Shown: piece after piece, positions 1,139-39,054 of the stretch
Layout of the letters: each line of letters starts with the position of its first letter
How positions within the stretch are numbered: the first letter of the stretch is position 1
Assembly (NCBI GenBank): GCA_027487685.1
Contig: JAIYDC010000082.1
Span: forward strand, 1 to 39,674
Reading direction: 5' to 3'
Source: Pseudomonadota bacterium
GTDB taxonomy: Bacteria; Bdellovibrionota; Bacteriovoracia; Bacteriovoracales; Bacteriovoracaceae
DNA: 39,674 nucleotides
Notes under the pieces: generated by a model
What the model was told of the DNA's origin: nothing
Databases searched by the model: none
Seen by the model: only the letters and a program-made list of their open reading frames with translations
Position numbers and translations under genes: made by a program

Positions 1139-3988
1139 TTAGAGGTTTTTAGCAAAAGGTGTCGGTCCCTTATCGTAGCCAAATTCCTGCACCCACTTTC
1201 TAATTGCTCGGATCTGGCGCTTCGGATCATTATCCAATACTCCGTCAACTGCAGGTATCAAGTTACCACTGCCATCATCCCAATACGCAGGCATGCTCGT
1301 ATAAGGTATGAACGACTGGGGATTAGCGATCCAAGCCTCCATCCATTCAGTACGGATACGATTTTTCGCATAGTGAAGATTTGGAGCCTGAGGGGCATCA
1401 CTCGTGAAGCCTAGAGAATGGCAAGAAGTACAAGCGAGCTCGTTCCAAATTCTCTGTGCTGCCTCACGCTCTCCCGGTTCCCACTCTATTTGAACTGGGG
1501 CTTCGTAGGTAGGCTGGTTGGCCCCGCCCTGGAATCCAGTCACAAGCTTATTGAGCTCAGCGTGGGCGAACGGGTATGACGGCATCCTTACGTTAACGTA
1601 AGGACGAATCGGATGGACGTTCTGAAGGAAATCATAGAGCCAGTCACTCTTTACGCGCAATCCTTCCTTCGTGAGGTAAGGAGGTCCATAGTTCTGGTCC
1701 TCAAAAGCCTTGGACAAGCTTCCACCGATGCCATCAATCTGGTGACAACCGTAACAGTTGTACTTGTTAGCGACTTTCATCCCATCGTAGTATTGCTTTT
1801 CACCTGCAGTTAGACGCTTTTGACCCTGAAGAGGAATCTTATCTGATACCAAGCCAAGAATGACTCCGACTATCGACTCAATCTCTTCGTCTTTGAGGTA
1901 AAAATTCGGCATCTTGTTTAAATCTTTGAAAGGCTTTGGAACACCTACGTCCCAGATGCTCGGGAGCTTTAGGTGCTGAGTGAGCCATCCCTGACGAGTA
2001 TGTGGAACATGCTTTTGCTGACCAAAACCGAACTGCTCTACAGGCTTTGAGCCTTCCTTCGACAACTCAGGTCCGATCTGAGGAAGATCACCATCGAAAC
2101 CATGAATCTCATGGCACGAATAGCAGCCGTACTTGTTGATCGAACGCTTAGCGAGTTCGGTAGTACGTTCTTCATCACTCATTTTCTCGAGCTTGGCCTG
2201 GGCTGCATTAATCGTTTCGAAAGCTGAGAAATAATCTGTCACAAGGATTTCGTCGCGAATTTTTTTATCGAGTGCCGGGAAGGTGAGCTCCTCGAATTGC
2301 TTATTCCGTGAAGCTAGTAAGAAAGCGGCCATGTCATTCGCTTCCTTATCTGAAAGGCGGAAAGACGGCATGATCGAAGTTGGATCATAATGTTTTGGCT
2401 GCTTAAGCCAAGATACAAGCCAGTCTGGATTTACTTTAGATCCAAGGTTAACAAGGTAAGGTCCTTTACGCTGGCCGACGGCGTTCCACTTATCATCAAT
2501 GCCTTCAATCTGGTGGCAACCGACGCAGCCGACTGTTTCCATCAGCACTTTACCATTTTCAGCGTTCCCACCTGCGTAACGAGCAAAAGGCTTGTACTCC
2601 TGCGATGTCCTGATGATGTATTCGGAGATAGCGTTGACCTCGGCGATGTTCTTTTTCTTAAACTCAGGCTTCGAATTATTGGCCTGCTCAAAGAAGTGAG
2701 GCATGCGCGAGCGTGGATTAAACGCGAACGGTGACCAGATCCAATTCCGGATCCACTCAGTGGCTTTAACCTTAGAAGTGATTTTGTAAAGACTTGGTCC
2801 AGGCTTGTTGTCATTTAAATGCTGCCACCCTTCGATTTTGTGACAACCATAGCAACCGTAGTTCTCGATGAGCTGACGACCCTTGTTCAGTTTATCGGCC
2901 ATAGGCAGACGTTCCTGATCCTTATGGCACTTCATGCACATACCCTCGGTATGCTGAAGTGGGATCATCGGCTGAGGAACCTTATGCGGCTCGTGCCAAT
3001 GGTACTTTTCCTTCCACTCTTTCTCCTGCTCCTTATTCTGAGGAATATGGGCCGGGGAATTGAAATCGTTGACTCGGTCTCCAACTCCGCCGTGGCAGGA
3101 GGTACAGCCGAAGTCCTTGGCAGGGTGTGCAGAGTTAACACCTACGGCCAGAGTTCCGACCTTTGGGTGTGTCTTATAGGGATTGGCCTGGTCTTCGTAG
3201 CCAGGACGATCGATAAACACGTGACAAGTCGTACAACGATCAATTTTAGGAACTTGCTGGAAGTAGAAGTCACTTGTTGCATTAGTAATAACGTACTGGC
3301 GAATTTTGATTGTAGGGTCAAGGAAGTCGATGAAAGGTGCGTTCCGCAATGCCCAGACTGGAGACTTCTCGGTACCCGCCATCGCCTGGAGCATGCGCTC
3401 TTTATCGCCGACAAGGCTTTTCAGTTCCTTCTCCGCAGAAGTCTTATCCGCCATGATAACTTTAAGCTCTTCTTGGGCCTTAACTTCGTCGGCCAGGAGG
3501 GCCTTAAGGTTATCTTTACCCTCTATTTCCTTCTTTTTATATTCATCGAAAGTAACCTTGATCTTCTTGGCTTCTGCCGGATGATTTTCCATCATCGCGT
3601 GTTCGTACTTGAACTGATTTTCGGATGCTTGAGAACCGTTAACACCGTTTACCATGTTCTGCACATAGATCTTACGCTGGATCTCGGTAATTCGGGAGTT
3701 GATCTTCTCGATCTTCTCCTCCTGGGATTGCAAGCCCTTCTCAGCATTAGCAATCTTCTGCTTAATTTCCTTGAGCTTATTGCCATCCATCGAGCCGTCG
3801 ATTTCGCGGATTTTCTCCTGAATCTTCTGCTTTTCGATGTCCAGGGCCTTTATCTGTACGGCTTTCCAAGGACGGATATAGTCATCGAAGACCATCCAGA
3901 TAACTACGAGTAGGAAGACTACGGAGACGAGGGCAAAGATCTTATTCAGAACTTTGGTGTCGTATGCCATTCCGGGTTCACGTTTCAT
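1139..3988 (-). CDS. membrane-anchored octaheme c-type cytochrome of a Rieske/cytochrome b complex
   Basis: This is the likely electron-accepting cytochrome c subunit of the quinol-oxidising complex encoded just upstream. The 949-residue protein has one N-terminal membrane helix (about 14-36), a long charged coiled coil (about 45-205), then eight CxxCH haem motifs starting at Cys252, 295, 351, 379, 488, 622, 745 and 853. The last five motifs are each followed by a Met-Pro (residues 429, 540, 693, 802, 899) that is the likely distal Met ligand of a class I mono-haem domain, so the C-terminal part looks like five tandem cytochrome c domains. The first three haems lack that pattern. The start at 3988 has AAGG nine bases upstream; Met7 at 3970 is an alternative. 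It is last in the operon, 24 bases after the cytochrome b gene, and is followed by a strong terminator. Confidence 0.9.
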   Translation of the reverse strand: MKREPGMAYDTKVLNKIFALVSVVFLLVVIWMVFDDYIRPWKAVQIKALDIEKQKIQEKIREIDGSMDGNKLKEIKQKIANAEKGLQSQEEKIEKINSRITEIQRKIYVQNMVNGVNGSQASENQFKYEHAMMENHPAEAKKIKVTFDEYKKKEIEGKDNLKALLADEVKAQEELKVIMADKTSAEKELKSLVGDKERMLQAMAGTEKSPVWALRNAPFIDFLDPTIKIRQYVITNATSDFYFQQVPKIDRCTTCHVFIDRPGYEDQANPYKTHPKVGTLAVGVNSAHPAKDFGCTSCHGGVGDRVNDFNSPAHIPQNKEQEKEWKEKYHWHEPHKVPQPMIPLQHTEGMCMKCHKDQERLPMADKLNKGRQLIENYGCYGCHKIEGWQHLNDNKPGPSLYKITSKVKATEWIRNWIWSPFAFNPRSRMPHFFEQANNSKPEFKKKNIAEVNAISEYIIRTSQEYKPFARYAGGNAENGKVLMETVGCVGCHQIEGIDDKWNAVGQRKGPYLVNLGSKVNPDWLVSWLKQPKHYDPTSIMPSFRLSDKEANDMAAFLLASRNKQFEELTFPALDKKIRDEILVTDYFSAFETINAAQAKLEKMSDEERTTELAKRSINKYGCYSCHEIHGFDGDLPQIGPELSKEGSKPVEQFGFGQQKHVPHTRQGWLTQHLKLPSIWDVGVPKPFKDLNKMPNFYLKDEEIESIVGVILGLVSDKIPLQGQKRLTAGEKQYYDGMKVANKYNCYGCHQIDGIGGSLSKAFEDQNYGPPYLTKEGLRVKSDWLYDFLQNVHPIRPYVNVRMPSYPFAHAELNKLVTGFQGGANQPTYEAPVQIEWEPGEREAAQRIWNELACTSCHSLGFTSDAPQAPNLHYAKNRIRTEWMEAWIANPQSFIPYTSMPAYWDDGSGNLIPAVDGVLDNDPKRQIRAIRKWVQEFGYDKGPTPFAKNL

Positions 3989-4012
3989 TTATCGCTGCCT
4001 TATGAAAAACAA

Positions 4013-5089
4013 TTAAAGGTTAAGTTCAAATTCTGGCATGGCCAGGATGTATTTAAGGTTAATGAACCACCGTAGATACATTTTGATTGGAAGGCTCATC
4101 ATACCAAGAATGAGAAAGATCATGATGTAGTAGCGGACTGCGCCCATTCGGTTGATGTAGTTCTTGCCCCACTTCTTCATGATCAATGGAAGGAGTCCAA
4201 AGAGGTAGCCGAAGACAACAATGAGTCCAAAAATTTCGCGAACTACAATGTTCTTTGGTAGGCTAGTATTAAAAAGCTTTATCCACATGATCTCAGAGAG
4301 GTTGATGTTATTTTCAGCGACAACTTTGTGCGCGTCCCAGTATTCGAAAGGCCCGTAAAACGTCCAGTTGGGTCCCCGAAGGAAAGTTCCGACCTGAATT
4401 AAGAAAATCCACAACACAAGCCAACCGAAAAGAAAGCTAGCGATGGCGAACTTCCTTTCCTTGAATGTGTAGTAGCCGTTTCCTTTTGGATTTACGTCAA
4501 GAAAAGGAATGGCGATGAGACCCACTACAATCAGACCAGGTAACACAACGCCTGCCATCCACGGGTCAAAATACACAAGCATTTCCTGAAGACCCAGGAA
4601 GTACCAGGGAGCCTTGGCCGGGTTTGGGGCCCATGTTGGGTTAGCCGGCTCTTCAAGTGGGGCCTTAAAGAATATCGCCCAAACGATCAAGAAAATAGTA
4701 CAGAGAATGCCGCAGAAGAGCTCGGTGTAAACGAGGTTTGGCCAAGCCCATACCTTCTCCCGATTCTCAGGACTACCCTCAATCGGTTGTTCGCCACGAG
4801 CAATTCGAAGATCGTTTTGGTGGCCTTTATAGAGGGCAAACCACGTCGACCAGAAAACAAGACCGTTAAGAATAATGATTGGAATATTATCTGGCAGAGA
4901 AATGACTGAGAAAAAGACCGGGTCGGTCACCATCCAGCCGAACACAAAGAGAACGAATATCAAAAGGCCCAAGCCAAACTTTTTAGTACCGACGATGTCG
5001 ATTCTTTTAAGACTCAGCAAGAACAGCACGATAAACGCCGTGAAGGAGTAGAGAGGAGAGGAGAGGTAGTTGATCGCTTCCTTAATCAT
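4013..5089 (-). CDS. cytochrome b C-terminal (subunit IV-like) protein
   Basis: A 358-residue integral membrane protein with about eight predicted helices, matching the C-terminal half of cytochrome b (subunit IV of b6f complexes) plus extra helices at both ends. Quinol-site residues lie in the segment PAKAPWYFLGLQEML (157-171). There the usual Pro-Glu-Trp-Tyr motif reads Ala-Pro-Trp-Tyr (160-163), so the Glu is missing. It would pair with the b6-like subunit encoded 15 bases upstream to form the split cytochrome b, with the Qo site near this loop. The split b organisation is typical of b6f and of many menaquinol Rieske/b complexes. The family call is firm; the exact quinone is inferred. Confidence 0.9.
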   Translation of the reverse strand: MIKEAINYLSSPLYSFTAFIVLFLLSLKRIDIVGTKKFGLGLLIFVLFVFGWMVTDPVFFSVISLPDNIPIIILNGLVFWSTWFALYKGHQNDLRIARGEQPIEGSPENREKVWAWPNLVYTELFCGILCTIFLIVWAIFFKAPLEEPANPTWAPNPAKAPWYFLGLQEMLVYFDPWMAGVVLPGLIVVGLIAIPFLDVNPKGNGYYTFKERKFAIASFLFGWLVLWIFLIQVGTFLRGPNWTFYGPFEYWDAHKVVAENNINLSEIMWIKLFNTSLPKNIVVREIFGLIVVFGYLFGLLPLIMKKWGKNYINRMGAVRYYIMIFLILGMMSLPIKMYLRWFINLKYILAMPEFELNL

Positions 5090-5104
5090 ATGTGTCCTAG
5101 TCGA

Positions 5105-5884
5105 TTAGAGTGGGGCCGAAATTCCACCGTCTTTCCGAACACGCCAAAAGTGGACGGCGATGAGGACGGCCACAACCAGAGGGATGAAGACACAGTGAAG
5201 GATGTAGAAGCGAAGAAGAGCGGCTTCTCCAACGAAGCGGCCACCAAGCAGCTGGAAGCGGACATCATTTTTGTCCGAAACCATGACAAAGTCGCCGATC
5301 CGAGCGAGAGCTGCTCCGGGACCACCGTGTCCGGCGAAAGGGGTCGCTTTTGCCATGTTTGAGCCTACGGTGATCGCCCAGATCGCCAACTGATCCCATG
5401 GAAGGAGGTAACCCGTGAACGAGAGGAGCATGGTAAGGATGAGTAGGACAACACCGACACCCCAGTTAAACTCGCGGGGTGGCTTATACGAGCCTGTCAT
5501 AAAGACACGGAACATGTGGATCCAAACAGTAATAACCATTAAGTGAGCGCCCCAGCGGTGAAGTTCTCGCATGATGCCGAGTGGCACGTGCTCACGCAAT
5601 CCGATGATATCAGTAAAGGCGTACTCGGCCGTAGGTCGGTAGTAAAACATAAGAAGAACGCCGGTTACGGTTAGTGCAAGGAACACAAAAAACGTCAAAC
5701 CACCCATGCACCAAGTGTAGCCAAGCTCAACACCGGACTTCTTAAGCTTGATAGGATGGAGATGAAGGAAGACGTTGCCAGCAATGACAGCGGCACGGTT
5801 ACGGGCATTATTCGGGGGCCCATGCCGGAAGATAGCTTTCCAGACTTGGGTATTAGCGACTTTCTTTGCAAAACCTTCAGACAT
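5105..5884 (-). CDS. cytochrome b6-like subunit
   Basis: A 259-residue four-helix, dihaem cytochrome b of the short b6 type. Haem ligands are His109 and His123 (13 residues between) and His230 and His245 (14 between); the second, longer spacing is characteristic of b6f-type rather than bc1-type proteins. Cys59, in [10 protein letters not shown], falls where b6 carries the cysteine that covalently binds the extra haem cn/ci next to the Qi site. The motif [11 protein letters not shown] (80-90) is also shared with b6. It lies between the Rieske gene (16-base gap) and the subunit IV gene (15-base gap). Function: electron transfer across the membrane from quinol oxidised at the Rieske site. Confidence 0.93.
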
Positions 5885-5900
5885 ATTTTTCCTCTAGAGA

Positions 5901-6404
5901 TTAAACTTCAATGTAGGCACCGTCGATGTTCCATTCACCTTTCTCGTAACGGAACACTTTTGTTTTATCGACGATGATCTTACCTTCAGGATTGAAGGAG
6001 ATCTTATAGCGCTCGAGTGGACGTGGAGCTGGGCCTTCGAAGTTGATGCCATTTGGGTAGTAGCCTGAACCGTGGCAAGGGCACTTAAACTTCGATTCAG
6101 CAGGAAGCCAAGTTGGAATGCAGCCGAGGTGGGTACAGATATTTGACATGGCCACGAGGCGGCCATCCTTTTTGTAGATCCAGACACCGAAACCATTTTT
6201 CCATCGCTCATCAACACCCTCCGGATAATCATCCGGAAATCCGGCCAAGAAATCCATCGCAGGTTCAAAGACAACATTCGGGTAAAGGAATCTGAAAATC
6301 AGGCTCGCAAAACCTGCAGTCGCTGCTCCAAACGTAATCCAGCCAACGGCGAGGAAGCTGAAAAATTCGCGGCGATTTAAACTGGTCTTTGCGTCGTCAC
6401 TCAT
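5901..6404 (-). CDS. Rieske 2Fe-2S protein
   Basis: A 167-residue Rieske subunit. The N terminus has a twin-arginine-like membrane anchor (NRREFFSFLAVGW, then a hydrophobic helix to about residue 40). Cluster box 1 is CTHLGC (90-95) and box 2 is CPCHGSGY (108-115), so the ligands are Cys90, His92, Cys108 and His111, with Cys95-Cys110 as the expected disulfide. It takes the first electron from quinol and passes it to cytochrome c. A GGAG sits about 8 bases before the ATG. It begins the core run Rieske - b6 - subunit IV - cytochrome c; a 93-base gap separates it from the HEAT-repeat gene. Confidence 0.95.
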   Translation of the reverse strand: MSDDAKTSLNRREFFSFLAVGWITFGAATAGFASLIFRFLYPNVVFEPAMDFLAGFPDDYPEGVDERWKNGFGVWIYKKDGRLVAMSNICTHLGCIPTWLPAESKFKCPCHGSGYYPNGINFEGPAPRPLERYKISFNPEGKIIVDKTKVFRYEKGEWNIDGAYIEV

Positions 6405-28752: not shown

Positions 28753-28914
28753 TTATTGAGCAGTGGCAGTCTGAGTGGGCGTCGAGGTAGGGTTAGGTGT
28801 TGATTTTGGATTTGTCCTCTCACCCTCGCTCATCTGCTCACATTCCGTAATTGTCTCTACTGCGAATGAAGCCGAGATGATGCCGATACAAACGAAGAAA
28901 ATAAGTACTTTCAT
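28753..28914 (-). CDS. small secreted protein 1 with C-terminal ATAQ
   Basis: A 53-residue protein with a signal peptide (MKVLIFFVCIGIISASFAVE), then ECEQMSEGERTNPK and a Pro/Thr-rich tail ending TQTATAQ. A strong AGGGAGG sits 5 bases before the ATG, which makes it a convincing gene despite its size. It is the third and last of three related small proteins in this region; the first part aligns with the 29090 protein (C-x-x-M-x-E then R-x-N-P-K). Function unknown. Confidence 0.75.
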   Translation of the reverse strand: MKVLIFFVCIGIISASFAVETITECEQMSEGERTNPKSTPNPTSTPTQTATAQ

Positions 28915-29040
28915 GAAAACCTCCCTAAAAGTTTCAATTCTTATACTTACAAGCTTCGTGCCAGGTCTGACGGTATAAGTAGGAGATATTTTTTAGGAGT
29001 CGGAAGAGGTTATGTCGAAAGGTTGAAGGGCCGCGAATAA

Positions 29041-29073
29041 AATCAACAGGGGAATCTAAATCCCCTGTTGATT
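29041..29073 (-). terminator. terminator after small secreted protein 2
   Basis: A perfect 13-base inverted repeat (AATCAACAGGGGA / TCCCCTGTTGATT) with a 7-base loop. On the minus strand it is followed by TTATTCG, giving a short T-rich tract. It lies 16 bases past the stop of the gene at 29090. Confidence 0.75.
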
Positions 29074-29089
29074 AGTACACGAATGTCTT

Positions 29090-29272
29090 TTACTGAGCGG
29101 TTGCATTGCCGCGGACGTTTCTAGGTCTAGGCCGTTGAGTTCCGAGGTTCACTTTCGGGTTATTCCGGAAGCTGGATTCCCTCATCATCGCGCAATCTGT
29201 GCTGCTCTCAGCTGCGATTGCCGAGGTACTCAGGATTGATAACAACATAAGAACAGTTAATAGCTTACTCAT
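29090..29272 (-). CDS. small secreted protein 2 with C-terminal ATAQ
   Basis: A 60-residue protein: signal peptide MSKLLTVLMLLSILSTSAIAA, then DCAMMRESSFRNNPK and a basic Arg/Pro stretch ending GNATAQ. The start is set at 29272, after GGGGGA, rather than a longer in-frame start that would spoil the signal peptide. It shares the Cys-Met-Glu-Arg-x-Asn-Pro pattern and final ATAQ with the protein at 28753. Function unknown. Confidence 0.75.
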   Translation of the reverse strand: MSKLLTVLMLLSILSTSAIAAESSTDCAMMRESSFRNNPKVNLGTQRPRPRNVRGNATAQ

Positions 29273-29417
29273 AGTTTTCCCCCAGGAGATAGTCTGCTGA
29301 GAAATAAGCAAATCGGCCGCCAGAGTAACCTTTAGGTAAGTGTGCGAAATAGAATAAAGTGTTGTCGATTTATTAAACAGGGCAAAGAAAAGTGTCGAAA
29401 AATTGTTCGATGAAAGA

Positions 29418-29444
29418 CCGGCGGAACCAGAGAGGCGCCGCCGG
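29418..29444 (-). terminator. GC-rich hairpin, probable terminator
   Basis: CCGGCGG and CCGCCGG form a 7-base stem with a 13-base loop, followed on the minus strand by TCTTTCATCG. It lies about 15 bases past the stop of the gene at 29459. The T tract is poor, so it may act with Rho or as an mRNA-end stabiliser. Confidence 0.5.
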
Positions 29445-29458
29445 ATTACAAAAGATGT

Positions 29459-29728
29459 TTACTGTTTGGTCGCATTCTGGCGAGCCTTGCGCCCGCCACG
29501 ATTTGGAGAGTTTAAGTCTTTTGAGCCCTCGCTATGATGCTGGGCCATGCACGCCTTAAAACAAGGACCACATCCAACAACGCTTGGGGCCTGGCATGGG
29601 TCCGTTGTAGTCGAGGGATTACGCTCACCAAGCATTGTATTCCGCTGGACTGGAGAACCGGTACCAGGTCCCATGGCAAAGCTAAGTGAAGAGGTTGCGA
29701 GTAGGGCGATGAGAAAATATATTTTCAT
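29459..29728 (-). CDS. small secreted protein 3 with C-terminal ATKQ
   Basis: An 89-residue protein with signal peptide MKIYFLIALLATSSLSFA, the motif MLGERNP (32-38), a Cys cluster (CQAPSVVGCGPCFKAC, about 45-60) and a basic tail ending RQNATKQ. AAGGAG lies close before the ATG. It starts 10 bases after the end of the RHS-repeat gene and is surely in the same transcript. It shares the ATxQ ending and ER-N-P motif with the two downstream small proteins but is longer by the Cys-rich insert. Confidence 0.75.
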   Translation of the reverse strand: MKIYFLIALLATSSLSFAMGPGTGSPVQRNTMLGERNPSTTTDPCQAPSVVGCGPCFKACMAQHHSEGSKDLNSPNRGGRKARQNATKQ

Positions 29729-29738
29729 GGATCTCTCC

Positions 29739-31367
29739 TTACATGTTTAAGTTAACGCCGGCAGGCTTAACAATTGTGAGCAAGTTCTGAAAGGCTTGAG
29801 TCACCTGGAGCGCCATCTTATGGCCAGCACTCGACTCCACTTTTTTAATTTCGCCGTAATTGTCGTAGGCGACATTGATCTTGCCGACTTTTTCCATCTC
29901 GATCTCAACCGGCTTACCAAGAGAATTGTACTTGAAAGCGAGTACACGACGTGAGGTTTCTGATTCCTGGTCAACCATCTTCGAGATCTTACCCTTCGTA
30001 TCGTAAATCAGGAAAACAGTCTTACCAAGGTTATTCATGGCCTTGACCAAATTACCCTTGGCATCGTATTCAAACGAGGTTGTACCTTCGTTGTTGACGA
30101 CCTTCTTAATTTTCTTAATCGCGGCGTCGTATTCGATGTTGACGAAATCACCTTTTGTCGACGATTTCTTAGTGAGAAGACCATCACTATTGTACTCAAA
30201 ATTTGTGACATGGTTACCCCGGGCAATCTTCAGTGGTAGAGAATTCTCTCCAAAGATTGTATCGGTTTTGATGCTATTAATGTCTGTCAGAATACGGTAA
30301 GTATAACGGGCACCATCGGCAGTAGTCTTCGTTTCGTACTCATAACGGTTTGCAACCGGTTTCCCATCGAAGCCAGGCTTCGTGACAGTTGTCCAATAAT
30401 GATTCTCAGCATTTTTGGGATCGGCCCCATACTGATACTTTGTCTGCTCTCCGTTTCGGTCGACAACCTCAGTAACGAAGAAAGTATTATGATCGTAAGA
30501 GATTTTCAAACTAGTCTTGTCACCGTAACGGATCTGGGAAAGATTGTGGGATTTATCATAGCCATACTCGTAGGCATTGTCGCCTATGTCATTAGAGTAT
30601 GACAGGTTAGACTCATCGTACTTGTAGGATGCCTTTTTATCCCCAGAAGACCAAATCTCTTTAACCAGCCCACCCGGGTACCACGAAAAGAATATCTGCT
30701 TGGCCTGGGAATCTTTGATCGACTCGAGTTTTCCTTCCTTGTAGTTGAAACCAACGAAGTAGCCGGATTTATCGGTGATCTTCGTAAGCTGACCTGTCGG
30801 ATTAAAGAAGTCTGCTCGTCCGTCAGTATGGACCCTCCGGTAGCCATCTTTAGTCACAAAAAGCTCCTGAGGTCCGCGGTCGTTAGAGTAAAGTACTGAC
30901 CCTGTCGCAACTGTCGCCTGAACTCCGAAGTTTACAGAGTAGGTGTGCCGAAGTTCAGCATTATTGGCAAGTTTTTGGATGAGATCGCTTGAAGACTTGT
31001 CCGAAAGGGCGGTCTTCTTCTTCATTTCAGTCACGATCTTTGTAGCAGCAGCGACAGCATCGACCGGAGTCTTAGGCGTAAAACGTGTCTTGGCGCCTGA
31101 GCCATGCTCGTGGACGATGATCGAACCGTCGGCGGAGATCTCCAGTTTGGTCTCGAATTCACTACCCCAGCCGAATCCGAACCAGCCTACATCCGTGGAC
31201 TTTGAATTGTACGTCCGAGTAATTTCAAGTTTTTTACCACCGCCGGGCACCACAATATCTGTGTAAGAGATGTAGAAGTTCCCGTTTTTGAGATTGACTC
31301 CAGCATGGGCCAAGGACGTGGCAAGGAGCGCAACCAGAGTGAGAGAGAATCCTTTCATAAACATCAT
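29739..31367 (-). CDS. secreted RHS/YD-repeat protein, compact form
   Basis: A 542-residue protein with a signal peptide (KGFSLTLVALLATSLAHAG), then a DUF6531-type start (VNLKNGNFYISYTDIVVPGG, LEITRTYNSKS, GWFGFGWGSEFE), then many YD-type repeats such as YKYDESNLSYSND, YDKSHNLSQIRYG and FEYDAKGNLVKAMNNLGKT. It lacks the conserved RHS core box and a C-terminal toxin of long Rhs proteins, and ends at about residue 542. ATG 31367 is chosen because AAGGTGG lies 4 bases upstream. A sigma-28-like promoter lies just before it. It could be a surface or exported adhesion-like beta-cage; there is no evidence for toxin activity. Confidence 0.8.
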   Translation of the reverse strand: MMFMKGFSLTLVALLATSLAHAGVNLKNGNFYISYTDIVVPGGGKKLEITRTYNSKSTDVGWFGFGWGSEFETKLEISADGSIIVHEHGSGAKTRFTPKTPVDAVAAATKIVTEMKKKTALSDKSSSDLIQKLANNAELRHTYSVNFGVQATVATGSVLYSNDRGPQELFVTKDGYRRVHTDGRADFFNPTGQLTKITDKSGYFVGFNYKEGKLESIKDSQAKQIFFSWYPGGLVKEIWSSGDKKASYKYDESNLSYSNDIGDNAYEYGYDKSHNLSQIRYGDKTSLKISYDHNTFFVTEVVDRNGEQTKYQYGADPKNAENHYWTTVTKPGFDGKPVANRYEYETKTTADGARYTYRILTDINSIKTDTIFGENSLPLKIARGNHVTNFEYNSDGLLTKKSSTKGDFVNIEYDAAIKKIKKVVNNEGTTSFEYDAKGNLVKAMNNLGKTVFLIYDTKGKISKMVDQESETSRRVLAFKYNSLGKPVEIEMEKVGKINVAYDNYGEIKKVESSAGHKMALQVTQAFQNLLTIVKPAGVNLNM

Positions 31368-31403
31368 AAATCCACCTTTTGCAGACATAGACAACCCTGA
31401 CAA

Positions 31404-31431
31404 TTATCGGTCACGGTGCCGCTAAACTTTA
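31404..31431 (-). promoter_or_regulatory. sigma-28 (FliA)-like promoter for the RHS gene
   Basis: On the minus strand TAAAGTTT (31424-31431), an exact match to the -35 of the sigma-28 consensus, then 12 bases and ACCGATAA (31404-31411), 7 of 8 to the -10. The usual spacer is 11. The -35 overlaps the tadB stop codon. Expected transcript start near 31396, about 30 bases before the ATG. The same spacing occurs at 8021-8048. Confidence 0.55.
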
Positions 31432-32396
31432 ATGTCAATTATCTTCATAATAACCCACATCCCGATACCTACCATCCCGCAGATAATGATCAGGAAAACG
31501 ATGCCTAGGACAGTGCCAAAGAGGAGAGGAAAATACTCGGGGTCACCGCTCCCGAACATCAGCATCATCATGAATGGCATTGCCCCGATTATGTAGGCCT
31601 GGATCTTCCCGGATGCGATGTAAGTATCAATCTTGAGCTGGAGCCGGACACGCTCACGGATGACAATAACGATTGTGTCGAAAACTTCGGCAAGATTACC
31701 ACCAGTTTCGCGTAGAATGTTGACACTTGTGACAAACATTTCATTGTCCTCAGTGTACAAACGCTTCTTAAGATTTTCCAAGGCCTCTTCAAGAGGAACC
31801 CCAATCTTTGCCTGTTGCAGGACAAGGTTGAATTCCTGACTTACTGGGGCAGGCATTTCGTCGACGACCATACCGATGGCCTGTGGCATGGTAAGACCCG
31901 CCCGAATACCGTTAGCAAGGAGATTTAGAGCATCGACCATTTGTACGGCATACTGTTTTTTTCGCTTATTCTCAAAGTAATCAACAATCGGCTTTGGGGA
32001 CTTCCATCCTACAAAGAACAGTACGATGGCGACAAAAATCGCGAGGGGTATTTTCCCCAGAAGTGCGATGGCGATGAATGCCATGACAGCAGATCCAAAG
32101 GACATCGCCAGAAGTGCAATGGTAATGCGATGAGGTTCAACTTCGATAAACATAATTTCGAATTTCTTAAGGATGTAGTCACGGGTACCAAAGGTCTGGT
32201 CGTCAATCCACGAGAACAACTTGACCGAGTTAATGTAGGTGTAGCCAAAAACTGCTGCACCAATAACGATAAGAAGACCTTTGACGCCGAGAACGTCTAA
32301 AAGAAGACTTATCTCTTTAGGACGCCGCGACTCCTCCTGGGCCATGACCGATGAGCTTAGAAGAAGGATAGTTGTGAAGGTAATGATGCTTCTCAT
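31422..32396 (-). CDS. tadB: TadB-type type II/IV secretion F-domain membrane protein
   Basis: A 324-residue inner-membrane platform protein for the Tad/Flp pilus. It has an N-terminal signal-like segment (MRSIITFTTILLLSSSVMAQ), helices at about 39-58 and 92-133, the T2SSF domain (about 155-250, with LLANGIRAGLTMPQA, MPAPVSQEF, GVPLEEALENLKKRL), and C-terminal helices at about 266-318. It starts 1 base after the TadZ-TadA stop. Tad systems normally also have a paralogue, TadC; no second such gene follows, so TadC must be elsewhere or absent. Confidence 0.85.
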   Translation of the reverse strand: MRSIITFTTILLLSSSVMAQEESRRPKEISLLLDVLGVKGLLIVIGAAVFGYTYINSVKLFSWIDDQTFGTRDYILKKFEIMFIEVEPHRITIALLAMSFGSAVMAFIAIALLGKIPLAIFVAIVLFFVGWKSPKPIVDYFENKRKKQYAVQMVDALNLLANGIRAGLTMPQAIGMVVDEMPAPVSQEFNLVLQQAKIGVPLEEALENLKKRLYTEDNEMFVTSVNILRETGGNLAEVFDTIVIVIRERVRLQLKIDTYIASGKIQAYIIGAMPFMMMLMFGSGDPEYFPLLFGTVLGIVFLIIICGMVGIGMWVIMKIIDIKV

Positions 32397-32397
32397 A

Positions 32398-34515
32398 CTA
32401 CTTATTCGTAAACAGGCCCCGGGGGACCTTGTACCCTTTCTTTTCGAGTGTTTCGATAAACTTCGGGATAAAACCCGTCGCCATGAATTTACCGATGATC
32501 TTGCCCTCCTTGTTCATCCCTTCCTGCTTGTAGGTAAAGATATCCTGAAGAGTTATGACTTCGCCCTGAATCCCACCGATCTCTGTTATGTAGAGGCACT
32601 TTCGAGAGCCATCGTCGAGTCGAGATTGCTGAATGATCATGTGGACTGCAGATGCGATCATTTCTTTGATCGCCTTTTGAGGAAGACCAGCACCTGCATA
32701 CTGAACGAGTGTCTCAAGACGAGAGATCGCATCACGAGGAGTGTTGGAGTGTACAGTCGTCATAGATCCGTCGTGGCCCGTGTTCATTGCCTGAAGCATG
32801 TCGAGAGTCTCGCCACCTCGACACTCGCCAACGACGATACGGTCGGGACGCATCCGTAGGGTCTGCTTAACCAGGCAACGGATATCGATGGCCCCGTCAC
32901 CCTCAAGTGACGGAGGCCTCGTTTCGAGACGAACGACATGGTCCTGCGGGAAGTTGAGCTCCGCCGAATCCTCACAGGTGATGATGCGCTCATTGGACTG
33001 GATAAATCCTCCGAGCATGTTAATCAGCGTTGTCTTACCTGAGCCAGTTCCGCCGGAGACGACGATATTTCGATGGGCCTCCACAGAGATCCTGAGGAAG
33101 TCCGCCATCTCCTCGGTCATGGCGCCGAAGGAAACCAGATCCTTATACGTCAACCGCTTATCTGGAAACTTTCGAATCGTGATACAGCAACCATCGATCG
33201 CACATGGCGGGATGATGGCATGCACTCGAGAGCCGTCAGCAAGTCGTGCATCTACATAGGGGGTCTTCTCGTCAATCCGACGCCCGATCGGTGCTACGAT
33301 TCGCTCAATGACGTTCATCACCTGCCGGTCATTGGTGAAAGTCACTTCAGACTTCTTCACTTTGCCTTTTTGTTCGTAGTAAATCTTTTTGGGGCCCACG
33401 ACCATGATTTCGGAGATGGACTTGTCAGCGAGCATGTCTTCTAAAGGACCAAGGCCCAAAGCCTCGTCGAGAATCTCCTTTACGATGCGGTTCATGTCAT
33501 CTCGGGTCGGAAGGATACTCTTAGTATCCTCTTTCCCGAGAAGCTCAACGACCATCTTCTTAGTCTGCTCCCTGAGGATGATCTTCGCTTTCGGATCATT
33601 GTCGTCTTGTTTTTTTAGATCCATCTCTTCGACTAAAGACTTATGAATTCGGCCTTTCAGGTCGGTCCATTGATCCTTCTTCTTCGCGTCGTCAGCAGCA
33701 CCTGCCTCACCGGTCCGTGCGCCGGCCTGAGCTGCTCCACTGTCTTGAGGCTTAGTCAGCCTCTCTAACGTCTTGAGAACATTTTTCTGAATGAGTTTTC
33801 GGACACAGTCGATCACCCCAGAGCCAAAGGGAGAACCCTTCGCGCCAACAAGGACCGGGGTTGATCGGGAGAGCGCAGCTATGCAGCTCGCGTCGTCTCT
33901 TGGGATGGCATGGAAGACCGGTTTTCCAATCTGCTTGCCGATTACATCCGGACTGACCGGATGGCCATTGACGGCCTGGTTCACAAGAATCTGGATCATA
34001 TCTTTAGGAAAAAGCATCGTCACCAGGTCAGTGTACATCCGCTTGCATTGGTTAACAGCTAGGAGATCTGGGGATGCGACGAGGAAAATCAACGTCGAGT
34101 ACTCCATCGCCTTAAGGGCCAGAGGTGTTAAATCGCAACCGGCGTCAATAACGATGACCGGGTAAATGTTGACCACGGCCTTCAAGACCTTACCGATTCC
34201 TTCTTCGTTCACCTGGTTAGCGGCTATCGGTTCCGTTGGCATTCCGACGTAAGAGAATCCAGCCTTGTGGTCAGCCGTAAAGAGTTGGATCGAGCGTGGA
34301 TCAATAGCACCACTAAAATCAGAGAGCTCTTTGAGGTTCTTCTTCGACTTAAGGCCCGTGATGATGTTCTGATCACCGCAAGACTTCTGGTCAAAATCAA
34401 GCAGTAGAGTCTTGGCACGCAACTCGCCGGCATAAGCAATGGCGAGATTGGCCGCGACCTGGGATTTCCCTACGCCGCCCTTGCCGCCGATGACTGTGAT
34501 TATATTCCCCGGCAT
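32398..34515 (-). CDS. fused TadZ (ParA-like) and TadA (CpaF-like) pilus ATPase
   Basis: A 705-residue fusion. Residues 1-255 are a ParA/MipZ-like ATPase of the TadZ/CpaE type: Walker A GGKGGVGKS (10-18), then IDAGCDLTP (123-131). A linker with Ala/Gly and charged residues (about 256-310) leads to a TadA/CpaF secretion ATPase (about 340-700): Walker A GGTGSGKTT (488-496), Walker B RIVVGECRGGE (559-569), and GHDGSMTTVHSNTPRDAISR (580-599). TadA powers Flp pilus assembly; TadZ localises the machine. In most Tad loci these are separate genes. Start: first ATG, just after the cpaC stop. Confidence 0.92.
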   Translation of the reverse strand: MPGNIITVIGGKGGVGKSQVAANLAIAYAGELRAKTLLLDFDQKSCGDQNIITGLKSKKNLKELSDFSGAIDPRSIQLFTADHKAGFSYVGMPTEPIAANQVNEEGIGKVLKAVVNIYPVIVIDAGCDLTPLALKAMEYSTLIFLVASPDLLAVNQCKRMYTDLVTMLFPKDMIQILVNQAVNGHPVSPDVIGKQIGKPVFHAIPRDDASCIAALSRSTPVLVGAKGSPFGSGVIDCVRKLIQKNVLKTLERLTKPQDSGAAQAGARTGEAGAADDAKKKDQWTDLKGRIHKSLVEEMDLKKQDDNDPKAKIILREQTKKMVVELLGKEDTKSILPTRDDMNRIVKEILDEALGLGPLEDMLADKSISEIMVVGPKKIYYEQKGKVKKSEVTFTNDRQVMNVIERIVAPIGRRIDEKTPYVDARLADGSRVHAIIPPCAIDGCCITIRKFPDKRLTYKDLVSFGAMTEEMADFLRISVEAHRNIVVSGGTGSGKTTLINMLGGFIQSNERIITCEDSAELNFPQDHVVRLETRPPSLEGDGAIDIRCLVKQTLRMRPDRIVVGECRGGETLDMLQAMNTGHDGSMTTVHSNTPRDAISRLETLVQYAGAGLPQKAIKEMIASAVHMIIQQSRLDDGSRKCLYITEIGGIQGEVITLQDIFTYKQEGMNKEGKIIGKFMATGFIPKFIETLEKKGYKVPRGLFTNK

Positions 34516-34517
34516 GG

Positions 34518-36077
34518 CTACTCTCTCCTCCGGAACTTCTTCCTGATCTCTTCGGTACCCGCGGAGGCGGATTCGATGATTTCTGGAGTCACAAAGATCA
34601 CGTACTGGCTCTTATTAGTGGAGTAGCTCTTAGAGCGATAGAGTCTGAAAAGAGGTGTGGCCGGAACCTGTCCCGCTGTTGCCGTCTGAGGCGCCGGATC
34701 ATTACCAGTATTATCGTAGTCCGTGGTCGATGTATTCTGAACGATACCACCAACGGCGGCCGATTCTTTCGACTTAAGAACCACATTGGTATTAATAGAG
34801 TTCGATGTGGTTATCGGCGCAGCACTTCCGGATGGGACCGCGATAGAAACAGAAAGCACAATACCGAGCTCTATTTTCTCTTGTTCCAAAACCTTTGGTT
34901 TAACATTGAGATCGAGTCCAATCTCAGCGCTGGCGGCTTTCGTGAAATCACCGGTTCCGAGAGCAAAGGGGATCGTTGTTTTCTTAGTGATTTGGCCTCC
35001 GTTCTCAAAGCCATCTCGAACTATCACCATCCCAGACTGTATCGTTCGAGCGTAACCTGCGCTCTTCGCAGCATTAAGTTTGGGAAACAAGTTTGAAATT
35101 GTTGCACTGAGGGTACCAGGTCGCTGCTGGCCGGTAATATTGCCGGTCGCCGTTTGACCAAAACTAATCTGCGAATTATCCTCACCCATAAGAGGCGCCC
35201 ACTTGAATGCAAAGACCTTGTTATAAGACTTCGAGAGCTCCACAAACTGGGACGTAACCTTAACCATTTTAGGTGCTGGTTGCTGCTGTTTCTTCTCGTC
35301 GACAGCAATAAAGTCGATGATGTCTTCAGTCTGCGGAGTCGCGTATCGAGTACTATTCGCGGAAAGATTCACGATTTTTGGTGGAAGATAAGCCTTCGCA
35401 ATGGTAACAGCGAGCTCCTTTTTCGATTTGTTCTCCACAACTCCCTCAAGCCAGAAGACCTTGTTCACAACCCGAACAGTGATATTCTTGAGAGTATTGC
35501 GTGATAGTTCATCCGTCATCTTCCGCGCGATCACTCGTTGAGTTTGGGGAGAAAGCTCAATGAGGGTCAAGACGTCCGGGTAGCTTGCCAAGACCTGAGA
35601 GACACGACCGATGTCATCTGGCACTACGATCTCGCCACCGACGAATACCTTGCCTCCGCGAATGCCGATCTCAAGGCCCTCGACGTCACCAATCAGTTCT
35701 CTGATCTCTGAGACAGTATTTGATTTACCAGTCGCTGTGATCACGACCGTGTATTGGAGTCTCACATCTCCAACCGTGTCCCGGATGATGACGCTTGTGC
35801 GGCCAGGTTTTAAACCTTTGAAGACAAGCTCTTTCTTCGCAGGGATGGCGATAATCCGCAGGAGATTCTCGTTACCGATAAAGACCTTGGTACTAAAATC
35901 AAAGTCAATCTTTTCTATGGCGTCGATACCCATGGCGACTTCGAGTTCTTTCGTCGGTGTCGCTGCTGTGGCCGAGCCTTGAGAGCTCGTTGTGGCAGTG
36001 GTCGTCGCCGTGTCTTGCCCATAGGCCAAGCTCGCGATGAACACAATTAAGGCGAAGAGGAGCGCTCTAGAAGCCAC
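34518..36077 (-). CDS. cpaC: CpaC/RcpA-type outer-membrane secretin
   Basis: The outer-membrane pore of the Tad/Flp pilus, about 519 residues. A signal peptide (RALLFALIVFIASLAYG) leads to the pilus-specific N-terminal domain (about 50-125, with KTSVIIRDTVGDVRLQYTVV-type strands), a BON-like domain, then the secretin beta domain with AVGGIVQNTS near the C terminus. The start is uncertain. The reading frame is open to 36149, but codons before 36077 run over the end of cpaB and give a basic, Pro-rich stretch that looks like out-of-frame cpaB. The GTG at 36077, with AAGG three bases upstream, is preferred; ATG 36143 is the alternative. Confidence 0.85.
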   Translation of the reverse strand: MASRALLFALIVFIASLAYGQDTATTTATTSSQGSATAATPTKELEVAMGIDAIEKIDFDFSTKVFIGNENLLRIIAIPAKKELVFKGLKPGRTSVIIRDTVGDVRLQYTVVITATGKSNTVSEIRELIGDVEGLEIGIRGGKVFVGGEIVVPDDIGRVSQVLASYPDVLTLIELSPQTQRVIARKMTDELSRNTLKNITVRVVNKVFWLEGVVENKSKKELAVTIAKAYLPPKIVNLSANSTRYATPQTEDIIDFIAVDEKKQQQPAPKMVKVTSQFVELSKSYNKVFAFKWAPLMGEDNSQISFGQTATGNITGQQRPGTLSATISNLFPKLNAAKSAGYARTIQSGMVIVRDGFENGGQITKKTTIPFALGTGDFTKAASAEIGLDLNVKPKVLEQEKIELGIVLSVSIAVPSGSAAPITTSNSINTNVVLKSKESAAVGGIVQNTSTTDYDNTGNDPAPQTATAGQVPATPLFRLYRSKSYSTNKSQYVIFVTPEIIESASAGTEEIRKKFRRRE

Positions 36078-36897
36078 CGGCCTTAGTCCTTTTGGTTTCT
36101 TTCGCCATTTGCTCGGCGAAGTAGGTCTTGGCCTCGGCCGCATCTTCACCTAAGACATCGTAGAGCCTTGTGGCGCTAATTCTTTCGATGGTCTTGTCGT
36201 CGTTATTCCGGAGTGAAAGATAAATCCCGTTACCCGCGGAAACGAGGAAGACCATCTTTTGAACCTCGAAGGGTGTCAGTTCGAGAGTAACCGTATTAAA
36301 GTTGGTGTAGTTATTGAGCTTCATTTGGCGCGAATCATTCTCACCTTTGATGTTAATGATGGGCACGGAATTCGTCACGAAAAGTCCGGTGGAGAGAATC
36401 AACACATCCTGGAGAACAGTCTTAACTTTCAACCGCTCTTTTTTTCCGGCAGCGTAATCAACGAGAGCGAGGACGTCGACTCGGTCACCGGGCTTAAGCA
36501 GTCGGCTCACGGCCTGGCCTTCAGTGACCTGGATGGAGAGCGCCCGCTTGCCAATCGAGATCTGCCGCGAGAGCCCCGACTGTGACCCCGGGTAGGTCAC
36601 ACGAGGGACAGTAATCTGTTCGCCTTTCTTGATCGGAACCGCGGCAATGGTATTATAGAGGTCTTCAACTCGCTTAAAGTGACCAGGCATCTGAAACTTT
36701 GAAGGAACGTTAATAAGCTGAACCTTACGATCGTCGATAATCTCGAGTTCCTTAATGTCTTCCTTAGCCACCACCACGGGGGTCTGATTTCCGTAATCGC
36801 TCTGGAGCTCGGTCTCCCGGCTCTCTATATAAGACCAGATCATTGCAACCGCCAAGGCAGCAAGGAGGAGACTGGTAGTAAACGCACGGCTATTCAT
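36067..36897 (-). CDS. cpaB: CpaB/RcpC pilus assembly protein
   Basis: A 276-residue periplasmic protein with an N-terminal membrane helix (about 5-25), a SAF domain (about 40-105, beginning TPVVVAKEDIKELEIID and including GEQITVPRVTYPG), and a second domain (RALSIQVTEGQAVSRLLKPGDRVDVL onward) typical of CpaB. It is thought to stabilise the secretin. It overlaps cpaC by 11 bases and follows the TadE-like gene after 86 bases that may hold a weak internal promoter (TTGCTC-16-TGATAA). Confidence 0.88.
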   Translation of the reverse strand: MNSRAFTTSLLLAALAVAMIWSYIESRETELQSDYGNQTPVVVAKEDIKELEIIDDRKVQLINVPSKFQMPGHFKRVEDLYNTIAAVPIKKGEQITVPRVTYPGSQSGLSRQISIGKRALSIQVTEGQAVSRLLKPGDRVDVLALVDYAAGKKERLKVKTVLQDVLILSTGLFVTNSVPIINIKGENDSRQMKLNNYTNFNTVTLELTPFEVQKMVFLVSAGNGIYLSLRNNDDKTIERISATRLYDVLGEDAAEAKTYFAEQMAKETKRTKAGGF

Positions 36898-36983
36898 AAG
36901 TTCGTCCTAAACTTTGAATGGTAATTCAATCACTTAAATCTTATCAGATTTTTCTTCCACGGGAGCAAAATGAACGAAGTTAC

Positions 36984-37493
36984 CTACTGGGTGATTGTGC
37001 AACTGGATTTATCAACCATGGAAACGAAGTTCGTCTGCCGATTATCCGGAAGGTAATAGACCTTCCCATTGGAATGGAAGTAGCTCCCTCCGCAAATCCC
37101 GTAGACCGTTCCGACGCGTACCCAGAGAGTGCGAGGCTCACCATATTCCTTTTCGCACTTCTCTTCCGCAGCTCCATTTTTAAGCGGGATGCTAACTTTG
37201 TAGCAAGGCATGACTGGTGCCACTCCCCCTTCGAAGTAGTCCTTCCAGCCAATAAAGAAAACGCTGAAAAGACTCCAGCCACTAAATGATTCGCCCACCA
37301 GCTTAGGCCCGGGAATAGTTGAGTTATTCTGAATCCTATTATAAAAATAGGCGCGGGCTACCTTCTGCTGATTGATCGAGCCGTTGATCGAATTGGCGAA
37401 GCCCGAGATCACGGAATAAAGGGTCACGATGAGGGGAAGGAAAATAAGTAATTCAATTAGCGCCTGGCCGCGCTCCGCACTTGTCAGTCTCAT
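36984..37493 (-). CDS. TadE-like prepilin protein
   Basis: A 169-residue protein with a class III prepilin-type start: ERGQALIELLIFLPLIVTL, where cleavage would fall before Gln-Ala and Glu is the usual +5 residue. A long extracytoplasmic domain with five cysteines follows. It would be processed by the TadV peptidase of the same operon and act as a minor pilin. The ATG at 37493 shares its A with the TGA stop of the upstream gene (TGATG), so translation is coupled. Confidence 0.8.
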   Translation of the reverse strand: MRLTSAERGQALIELLIFLPLIVTLYSVISGFANSINGSINQQKVARAYFYNRIQNNSTIPGPKLVGESFSGWSLFSVFFIGWKDYFEGGVAPVMPCYKVSIPLKNGAAEEKCEKEYGEPRTLWVRVGTVYGICGGSYFHSNGKVYYLPDNRQTNFVSMVDKSSCTITQ

Positions 37494-38029
37494 CAGCAAC
37501 CGTCGTCAAACAGGGTTACGTCCATCGTTGCATCGCAATTCTCCTGACCGGTAAGTGCGACGCAGACTCGCGTCGCGCACTCTGCACGAGTCGGCTCCTT
37601 TCCTAAGAAAGACTCGGAAACAAGTTCGAGTTTTTTCTGGCCAGCAACCTTGCCAAGAAGATCTATGGTGAGCTCAAATGTGGTGAACGCACCTACGGTC
37701 ATATTCTGTGTATTATCGTCGACGTCTTCAACGCGGTTAACGACGAAGTTTTCATTGGGAACTCGAAAGACACTCAGGTTGTAGGAGGCGAAAGCACTCC
37801 GCGCCTTTTCACCTGCGCCGTTAAGAGAAAACCCGACGGACCCGAAGTTTCCCGCGTGATTATCGGCCGTGAGATAAACCCGACTCGCCATGAAAGTGGC
37901 ATACTGAACGAGGTACCCTGTGGCGTAGTTAAGTGAGGTATTGAAAACCGCAAGGATCAAGCTTACGCCAAAAGCAAAGGTTAGAATGAATTCGATCGTC
38001 GACTGGCCCTGTTGGTTGCTAGTTTCCAT
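37493..38029 (-). CDS. TadE/TadF-like prepilin protein
   Basis: A 178-residue protein with the prepilin motif QGQSTIEFILTFAFG near the N terminus, a single hydrophobic helix and a disulfide-capable C-terminal part. AAGGA lies 5 bases before the ATG at 38029; a longer frame reads through the upstream gene and is rejected. It is a second minor-pilin candidate. TadE and TadF cannot be separated by inspection. Confidence 0.78.
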   Translation of the reverse strand: METSNQQGQSTIEFILTFAFGVSLILAVFNTSLNYATGYLVQYATFMASRVYLTADNHAGNFGSVGFSLNGAGEKARSAFASYNLSVFRVPNENFVVNRVEDVDDNTQNMTVGAFTTFELTIDLLGKVAGQKKLELVSESFLGKEPTRAECATRVCVALTGQENCDATMDVTLFDDGC

Positions 38030-38345
38030 AGGGGTCCTTGGGTCCGAAGAAACGAGTATTCTCGCCCCCAGACCCTTTGTAAGAGGGATGCTCGCTAATA
38101 TCCTTATTGTTCCGGGGAATATCCGGCACAGTGGCGTTGCTGGGCCCACTGGTATAGAAGGCGTGTCGGTAGGCAAACTCGTTCTGCGTTTTCATCTTTT
38201 TCCCGATCTCCCCTTGCTCACCAAAGAGTTTTCGGAAAGCCTGACTGCGGTATACCGTCGTTACCAGAGACACTGCGACGGCAAGAAGAAGGATATACTC
38301 CACTAGCGTCTGCCCACGCTCTGACGTGGCGATCAGCTGCTTCAT
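38019..38345 (-). CDS. small prepilin-like protein of the Tad locus
   Basis: A protein of about 108 residues: MKQLIATSERGQTLVEY, a hydrophobic helix, then a polar tail rich in Pro, Asn and Gly. The G-Q-x-x-x-E-Y motif is a class III prepilin signal. The ATG at 38345 overlaps the tadV stop as ATGA; an ATG two codons earlier (38351) has GGGG upstream and is also possible. It overlaps the next gene by 11 bases. Role: minor pilin, inferred. Confidence 0.72.
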   Translation of the reverse strand: MKQLIATSERGQTLVEYILLLAVAVSLVTTVYRSQAFRKLFGEQGEIGKKMKTQNEFAYRHAFYTSGPSNATVPDIPRNNKDISEHPSYKGSGGENTRFFGPKDPYGN

Positions 38346-38836
38346 TTCCATAAGTTCAGCCCCCATAATATCCAAGCGAGGGCGATAACGGGGGCATAAC
38401 TAAAGCGTGAGCGAAGCACTTGCCGGACACCGGCCCACTGCCCGGTTAAGACATACGCTCGCAGAGAGCCCCGATTTAAGAAGCTTCGGTATATGATGAG
38501 GAGAGCACCGGTAATGGCCGTGCTGACGACGAGCTTCTCAAAGAGAGGAAGATGATACTCCAGCGGGACAAGAAGAAACAAGCTTGCCAGAAATTTTGAA
38601 TCCCCTGCCCCCATTATTTTTAGGAGGTAGAGAAGAAATCCAATCACTATAAACCCGAGGGGAAAAATCAGCGCTTCCCAGCTGAGTGGGTAGAAAGGGG
38701 CCGCTATGAAATAAAGAACTGGTGCGATGCAGATATTGGCAAGGGCCCAGCCATTGGAGATTCGGCGGGATCGGATGTCAACCCAGGCGACGATGAAGAG
38801 CTCCAGCAGGACGAGTCCGTAGAATGACAGCGCCAT
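38342..38836 (-). CDS. tadV: TadV/CpaA-type prepilin peptidase
   Basis: A 164-residue integral membrane aspartyl peptidase that cleaves the Flp and TadE-like prepilins. Catalytic Asp20 lies in AWVDIRSRRISN and Asp79 in MGAGDSK, the two required residues. About six membrane helices are predicted. As in other TadV proteins, the N-methyltransferase domain of PilD is absent. The ATG at 38836 overlaps the previous stop (TGATG), and a TTG one codon earlier is the less likely start. Confidence 0.92.
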   Translation of the reverse strand: MALSFYGLVLLELFIVAWVDIRSRRISNGWALANICIAPVLYFIAAPFYPLSWEALIFPLGFIVIGFLLYLLKIMGAGDSKFLASLFLLVPLEYHLPLFEKLVVSTAITGALLIIYRSFLNRGSLRAYVLTGQWAGVRQVLRSRFSYAPVIALAWILWGLNLWK

Positions 38837-39054
38837 CAATAGGTTCCCGTGAAGCCGTTCTTGTAGCCCTTAAACCAGCACTCTGAAGGGCAGACTCCGA
38901 TCGTCAAGTGACTCGATAGCACGTGACTCACATTACCCATGCTGCTGCTGAAAAAATCCGTGTATTTGTTGAAGATGTTAACCCCAAGGAGGCTAGCGAA
39001 AGCGAGAATAAAAACGTATTCAACGGTCGCCTGACCGCCTGAAGAAGGTTCCAT
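38836..39054 (-). CDS. Flp-like small pilin protein
   Basis: A 72-residue protein: GGQATVEYVFILAFASLLG gives a prepilin cleavage signal plus hydrophobic helix, and two cysteines (CPSEC) lie near the C terminus. It is longer than, and distinct from, the main Flp pilin at 39109, and may be a minor pilin. It follows the pilin gene by 54 bases and is coupled to tadV. Confidence 0.7.
   Translation of the reverse strand: MEPSSGGQATVEYVFILAFASLLGVNIFNKYTDFFSSSMGNVSHVLSSHLTIGVCPSECWFKGYKNGFTGTY

Follow-up and report, generated by a model that had tools for sequence, protein, structure and literature searches.

The window, a stretch of 39,674 nucleotides analysed as a whole, carries, in its Bacteriovoracaceae form, the hit locus of Bdellovibrio, which decides the prey dependence of that predator and whose mechanism has been a decades-long puzzle. 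The explanation that we favour overall, at a probability of roughly 0.6, is a predator hit locus in which an RHS cage and a small exported protein (gene A) precede one or two sigma-54-switched genes for further small exported proteins (genes B and C), all ending in a shared C-terminal tail through which a reader and a feedback would act. The hit locus, Bd0108 and Bd0109 are already known, and for a strain of Bacteriovorax marinus two small exported proteins encoded nearby have been mentioned (PMC4267844). We found no earlier reports of sigma-54 promoters in the hit locus, of a protein encoded within its 'sRNA' or of matched tails, in a search that missed most subscription journals. A preliminary description of the window had stated that no named family fits the three small genes, which is wrong for the locus, this being the hit locus of Bd0108 and Bd0109 (PMC3818213, PMC4267844); it also overlooked that the two smaller genes have sigma-54-like promoters of their own and that the endings match within genomes.

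The hit locus and its small exported proteins

The features of the locus in the window are as follows.

28753..28914, minus strand: gene C, 53 aa, predicted exported, one cysteine after the signal peptide, tail TATAQ
28948..28963, minus strand: sigma-54-like promoter of gene C, TGGCACGAAGCTTGTA, with T for C at the -12 element
29050..29065, minus strand: intrinsic-terminator-like hairpin behind gene B (pattern match only)
29090..29272, minus strand: gene B, 60 aa, predicted exported, one cysteine after the signal peptide, tail NATAQ
29307..29322, minus strand: sigma-54-like promoter of gene B, TGGCGGCCGATTTGCT, at the same place in nearly all relatives
29459..29728, minus strand: gene A, 89 aa, in the bd0108 position, predicted exported, four cysteines after the signal peptide, tail NATKQ
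29739..31370 or 29739..31403, minus strand: exported RHS-repeat protein, Bd0109 homologue, with DUF6531 and RHS_repeat (Pfam)
31422..38839, minus strand: Tad/type IVb pilus operon upstream of the RHS gene (Pfam)

The RHS gene is the final gene of the Tad operon, which also encodes a T2SSF protein, a CpaE-CpaF/TadA fusion, a secretin, RcpC/CpaB, an A24 prepilin peptidase and two proteins without a Pfam match, and the small genes come next. The fusion (32398-34515, minus strand) is a 705-aa protein that joins a MinD/CpaE-like N-terminal domain to a CpaF/TadA ATPase. Elsewhere in the window (1139-6277, minus strand), a 949-aa cytochrome c protein and an adjoining cytochrome b protein may form an alternative respiratory complex.

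The open reading frames bear out the preliminary description in its three small minus-strand genes of 89, 60 and 53 codons, in their endings (ATKQ, ATAQ and ATAQ) and in their place directly downstream of an RHS-repeat gene, gene A lying 10 nt behind the RHS stop. The strong or fair ribosome-binding sites described there hold for the 89-aa and 53-aa genes, both with a strong Shine-Dalgarno sequence, and not for the 60-aa gene, where it is weak (GGGGGA). For gene B we use the homology-supported ATG (60 aa); an alternative TTG start gives 73 aa. Signal peptides were called by simple rules, from hydrophobicity and the AxA motif alone. The noted resemblance of the two smaller proteins in C-x-x-M and R-x-N-P-K turns out to be a genuine family feature within the genus. 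Searches of Pfam and NCBIfam with the small proteins gave no match, and an Rfam scan of the window returned tRNA only.

The identity of the locus follows from B. bacteriovorus HD100, where the gene of the RHS homologue directly precedes bd0108: there, 15 nt separate the RHS gene from a gene for precisely the 101-aa Bd0108, compared with 10 nt between the RHS gene and gene A in the window. In both cases an exported RHS-repeat protein of about 550 aa without a C-terminal toxin is encoded beside Tad genes, and in the window the 89-aa exported protein is encoded immediately behind it. The RHS protein is present in 118/129 genomes of the family and 61/66 Bdellovibrionaceae genomes, usually as a single copy, and its C terminus (..IVKPAGVNLNM) is nearly invariant in the genus. 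Its repeats match Pfam PF05593 at 3.5e-16, and its AF2 model matches Rhs cocoons (top match 8qjd, Z 14.6); all model matches above Z 8 are Rhs, Tc or teneurin shells, and nothing else stood out. From sequence and model (pLDDT 72), the RHS protein is thus predicted to be a YD-repeat beta shell of the RHS cocoon fold, which may or may not be closed. Bd0109 is known to bind Bd0108, and mutations in bd0108 release Bdellovibrio from its need for prey (PMC3818213, PMC4267844); control of pilus extrusion and prey-independent growth by the small protein has been described for B. bacteriovorus HD100 only (PMC3818213).

The gene order RHS-A-B(-C) is common to Bacteriovoracaceae and Bdellovibrionaceae, and gene B is kept in position through both. 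Counted from the RHS stop, small signal-peptide genes are found at about +10, +440-490 and +800 in the genus of the window, and at about +15, +500 and, in some genomes, +930 in Bdellovibrio. In one further genome (G040), a small exported protein is encoded behind both RHS copies (L227, L246), and a sigma-54 gene B behind the L227 copy only. B and C proteins are about 61 aa long and contain exactly one mature cysteine in 162/165 cases; A proteins are longer and vary in cysteine number. The A protein of the window (P0003) gave no match to NCBIfam NF053838 (hit_Bd0108) at E<=1, a profile that Bd0108 of HD100 matches at 1.9e-29. P0003 contains CGPC, CxxC occurs in only 56/155 A proteins, and the profiles are too short and diverged to align. 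Profile comparisons of A with B/C, and of B between the two families, gave no significant similarity, and we therefore do not claim that A and B are homologous.

Sigma-54-like promoters and the transcript behind bd0108

Genes B and C are each very likely preceded by a sigma-54 (-24/-12) promoter, as judged from sequence. With gene B picked by reading frame alone, TGGCAY-N7-GCW lay within 150 nt upstream of 98/110 genes B, against 0.10 expected from dinucleotide shuffles, and at a distance of 31-70 nt (median 41) from the start codon; upstream of gene A the count was 0/110. The -24/-12 elements (TGGCAY-N5-TTGCW) thus occupy a fixed upstream place and exceed chance over the clade. The two sites of the window are imperfect, each one to two bases off the consensus, and 35/155 representative loci have no detected sigma-54 gene. 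A gene for sigma-54 itself (rpoN, PF04552) is present in 5/5 genomes searched (G000, G006, G062, G153, G040). Given the sigma-54 sites and the hairpin after gene B, gene A is presumably transcribed with the operon, and genes B and C would form separate switchable units. We found no literature linking sigma-54 or rpoN to the hit locus, which is weak evidence of absence. Across the genome of the window (L259-L277), exact TGGCAYN5TTGCW occurs 19 times versus 6 for the reversed control, one site lying before a flagellar rod-like gene and two before related uncharacterised proteins of 245-274 aa (L266, L271).

In HD100, this arrangement coincides with a transcript described as a 'small non-coding RNA' at 96455-96716, with an RNA-seq extent of 96436-96822, which was raised in all bd0108 mutants tested (PMC3818213).

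96683-96483, minus strand: HD100 gene B, 66 codons, strong ribosome-binding site, predicted signal peptide
96758-96743: sigma-54 site of HD100 gene B, TGGCACACGCGATGCA

The coordinates of HD100 gene B fall inside the published RNA. Changes between close relatives are predominantly synonymous (synonymous/non-synonymous 15/3 between HD100 and G159, and 12/1 and 15/0 in other comparisons), which indicates purifying selection on a protein, and on these codon patterns gene B is very likely protein-coding. Its HD100 product belongs to no Pfam or NCBIfam family. The published reading, a regulatory non-coding RNA with an incidental open reading frame, comes from RNA-seq and RT-PCR (PMC3818213), but the frame has a strong ribosome-binding site and a signal peptide, keeps its position across two families and has codons under purifying selection, so that we consider this reading very improbable. 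In all likelihood the HD100 RNA is transcribed from a sigma-54 promoter as the message for an exported protein, and it may in addition function as RNA. merRNA and the other attack-phase sRNAs of PMC3627812 are located elsewhere in HD100.

C-terminal tails matched within genomes

The preliminary description had treated ATxQ as a conserved ending, which does not hold among relatives: their endings include RGTR, NTSK, VVPQ and AIKK. The last four to six residues differ between lineages and match among the small proteins of the same genome, as in the A/B/C sets NTSK/NTSK/NTSK, VAPR/VAPR/TVTR, VVPE/VVPQ/VVPQ and AVKR/AIRK/AIKK and the pair KGTR/RGTR. The enrichment of ATxQ that it had suggested checking is present in the genome of the window. 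Residue frequencies predict about 0.5 such proteins per genome, about 0.1 of them exported, and 9 plausible open reading frames were found, 8 apparently exported; in all, the coded ending had 18 matches (9 of them plausible genes) versus 12 in the control. These counts for the whole genome were obtained from pattern searches and samples.

The matching was quantified in 120 genomes, thinned to <95% RHS identity, as the BLOSUM62 score of the last four residues. For A and B, tails scored 4.81 within genomes versus -0.36 when shuffled and 2.07 when drawn from nearest relatives, and none of 2000 shuffles or draws came up to the within-genome value; within-genome and nearest-relative scores were 4.76 versus 1.83 for A-C and 8.62 versus 2.17 for B-C. 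Disjoint sister pairs, in which own and swapped pairings are compared and phylogeny is thereby controlled for, favoured the own pairing by 35/14 for A-B (Wilcoxon 6.9e-5), 14/2 for A-C and 17/1 for B-C, with contributions from both families. The A-B signal is located in the last five or six residues, and control residues -9..-12 gave 28/25. Agreement is partial, all three last residues being equal in 15/45 genomes.

Matching tails also occur in at least two families of exported proteins encoded away from the hit locus. When one genome was searched for NTSK endings, an unlinked 256-aa exported protein emerged that finishes in SSNTSK, exactly as B and C do in that genome. Within the genus, orthologues of this protein track the hit-locus tails (NATMAK with TMSK/TLSK, ATNVSK with ATNISK; p by permutation 0.0017 against B and 0.0003 against A), and more distant orthologues match mostly at the last residue (TSGQ, VTIER, VRPE), with exceptions. 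A second unlinked family, of Cys-rich exported proteins in the genus of the window, ends in ATGQ/ATEQ in the window's own genome, and elsewhere in ASEQ where A ends ASKQ, in GAIQE where A ends GAIQG and in RAINK alongside AVKR/AIRK/AIKK (p 0.023 within the genus). Matches in the unlinked families are poor in G131, G088 and G091 and for one paralogue in G013. No sigma-54 sites were seen upstream of the unlinked carriers. In L385, L389 and L391 (G000:C91, G006:C10, G010:C42), the tail-bearing Cys-rich family lies between apparent rpsD and cytochrome oxidase genes, next to an 82-84 aa exported protein (..DVFIRGKI..) without the tail. Three exported paralogues of about 280 aa in L387 (8108-8963, 10764-11604 and the gene between; G000:C92) end in PRGTHQ, QRATRQ and QRATRQ and possibly form a further family with a hit-locus tail.

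Exported proteins do not generally end in the tail: of 78 sampled from 400 kb of G015, a genome of the same genus, none ends in [AST][STAV]xQ. A 400-kb sample of G060 showed a weak excess of [IVML][SATG]K (5/123 versus 0/261). Of the earlier suggestion of a recognition tag or a surface/secretion signal, the recognition tag is thus supported, by tail co-variation across the 120 genomes, by the sister pairs and by the unlinked carriers; a surface/secretion signal has no support in these data, and the count in G015 argues against a general export signal.

Since the tails match within genomes, differ between lineages and occur also on unlinked exported families, they are likely to be a lineage-specific C-terminal recognition tag. 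To judge from the same comparisons, the shared tail is probably under selection, and we regard a single reader as moderately probable; the matching of unlinked carriers and the restriction of the tag favour a common reader of a small exported set over local gene conversion.

Among the alternatives, the tails could act as degrons, or as protection signals, towards a tail-specific periplasmic protease of the PDZ/S41 type whose preference drifts between lineages. The last 4-6 residues, a stretch as long as such proteases read, show the strongest coupling, all carriers are exported, and the small ones look disordered from their composition; the carriers are few, however, as the sampled genome of the genus also indicates, and we consider this reading unlikely. 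The tails could also be species-type peptide pheromones, released from several precursors by cleavage and perceived by kin, for which Bacillus Phr peptides and duplicated yeast mating-factor genes are parallels. Small exported precursors, disordered-looking linkers and hypervariable tails matched among the precursors of one genome would fit, as would prey-independent growth reported as quorum-sensing-like (cited in PMC4267844). The tails of one genome resemble each other without being identical (ATKQ/ATAQ; TISK/NVAK), however, and also end larger Cys-rich proteins of 250-560 aa, which makes pheromones quite improbable.

Local gene conversion or recent tandem duplication could keep the endings alike without selection for a shared reader. 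B and C tails are identical over 8 residues in a few genomes (L197), and the same-codon rate at shared tail residues is 0.49-0.55 versus 0.43-0.44 expected, so that some conversion between B and C (z 2.5) is possible, and less between A and B (z 1.9). Shared residues are nevertheless mostly encoded by different codons (TCG AAC ACA TCT AAG versus AGC AAT ACA AGC AAA for the same tail), A and B match in the tail and not at residues -9..-12, and the unlinked families match too; this reading is already disfavoured, and we hold it to be very unlikely. A reflection of chance or of genome-wide C-terminal residue bias is highly improbable: K and Q are common last residues and last-residue agreement among neighbours is partly phylogenetic (0.28 in nearest relatives), but the observed matching exceeds nearest-relative draws in 2000/2000 trials and wins the sister-pair contrasts, and the sampled genome of the genus has no such general ending.

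A proposed tag-based switch and its known counterparts

In the disordered Bd0108, residues 24-66 are the part that binds Bd0109, and residues 89-101 remain free in NMR (PMC3818213, PMC4267844). A 42-bp deletion that removes residues 73-86 (RRHDDTVSREIKGS) and leaves the tail alters piliation and makes Bdellovibrio prey-independent, and in this deletion the rise of the HD100 gene B RNA is slightly smaller (PMC3818213, PMC4267844). Returning to the recognition tag, we tentatively propose a feedback loop that links a Bd0108-type protein with the RHS cage and with partners induced by sigma-54, the shared tail being what is read, and in which (i) the RHS shell would hold A with its tail outwards; (ii) A bound to the cage would signal the state of the pilus; (iii) one periplasmic or surface partner, whether a sensor, a receptor or a tail-specific protease, would read the free tail; (iv) a falling A signal would lead an NtrC-type activator to switch on B and C; and (v) B and C, bearing the same tail, would restore the signal or compete for it. 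We rank a sensor or receptor first among the possible readers, since sigma-54 promoters require an activated NtrC-type protein. Against our overall explanation we count that no reader of the tail was found and that the hit locus is linked to neither a sensor kinase nor an NtrC-type activator.

A broader hypothesis, to which we give somewhat less than even odds, is that in Bdellovibrionota a fast-changing, lineage-specific C-terminal tag marks a few exported proteins at several loci and co-evolves with one partner, and that the predation switch of the hit locus works through this tag. The claims that the transcript behind bd0108 codes for a protein, that sigma-54 drives this transcript and that a short matched tail connects exported proteins of the hit locus with others elsewhere are testable. 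If one partner does read the tail, identifying it would supply the receptor still missing from the predation switch.

One of the closest known arrangements is that of BMS_0182 in Halobacteriovorax (Bacteriovorax) marinus, a Bd0109 homologue with two small signal-peptide neighbours (BMS_0183/0184) that were said to have no significant homology to Bd0108 (PMC4267844). The likeness to genes A, B and C lies in these two small proteins beside the RHS protein; that paper reported no analysis of promoters, tails or families. With the hit locus of B. bacteriovorus HD100, the locus of the window shares a toxin-less RHS protein encoded behind Tad genes, a small exported protein 10-15 nt after it and a sigma-54 gene B, which in HD100 lies at +510. 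Whereas one small protein is counted in the published Bdellovibrio locus, two or three are predicted here, the later ones apparently sigma-54-driven. The RHS protein shares its repeat fold, in sequence and model, with the Rhs/YD-repeat cocoons of Tc toxins, T6SS Rhs proteins and teneurins, and differs from them in having no toxin tip, a length of about 540 aa, export by a signal peptide and a gene encoded with a Tad locus. The Phr/PapR precursors of Bacillus are likewise small and exported, with variable C-terminal residues as the signal; Phr peptides, in contrast, are paired with Rap proteins and re-imported, and the tails described here also end larger proteins. KDEL, HDEL and DDEL, the retention signals of the eukaryotic endoplasmic reticulum, are more conserved by far and have a known receptor, but they too are C-terminal tetrapeptides on unrelated exported proteins that vary between lineages with their receptor. 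By this analogy, the tail of the hit locus may be a bacterial counterpart of the HDEL/KDEL logic, or a form of kin-specific signalling.
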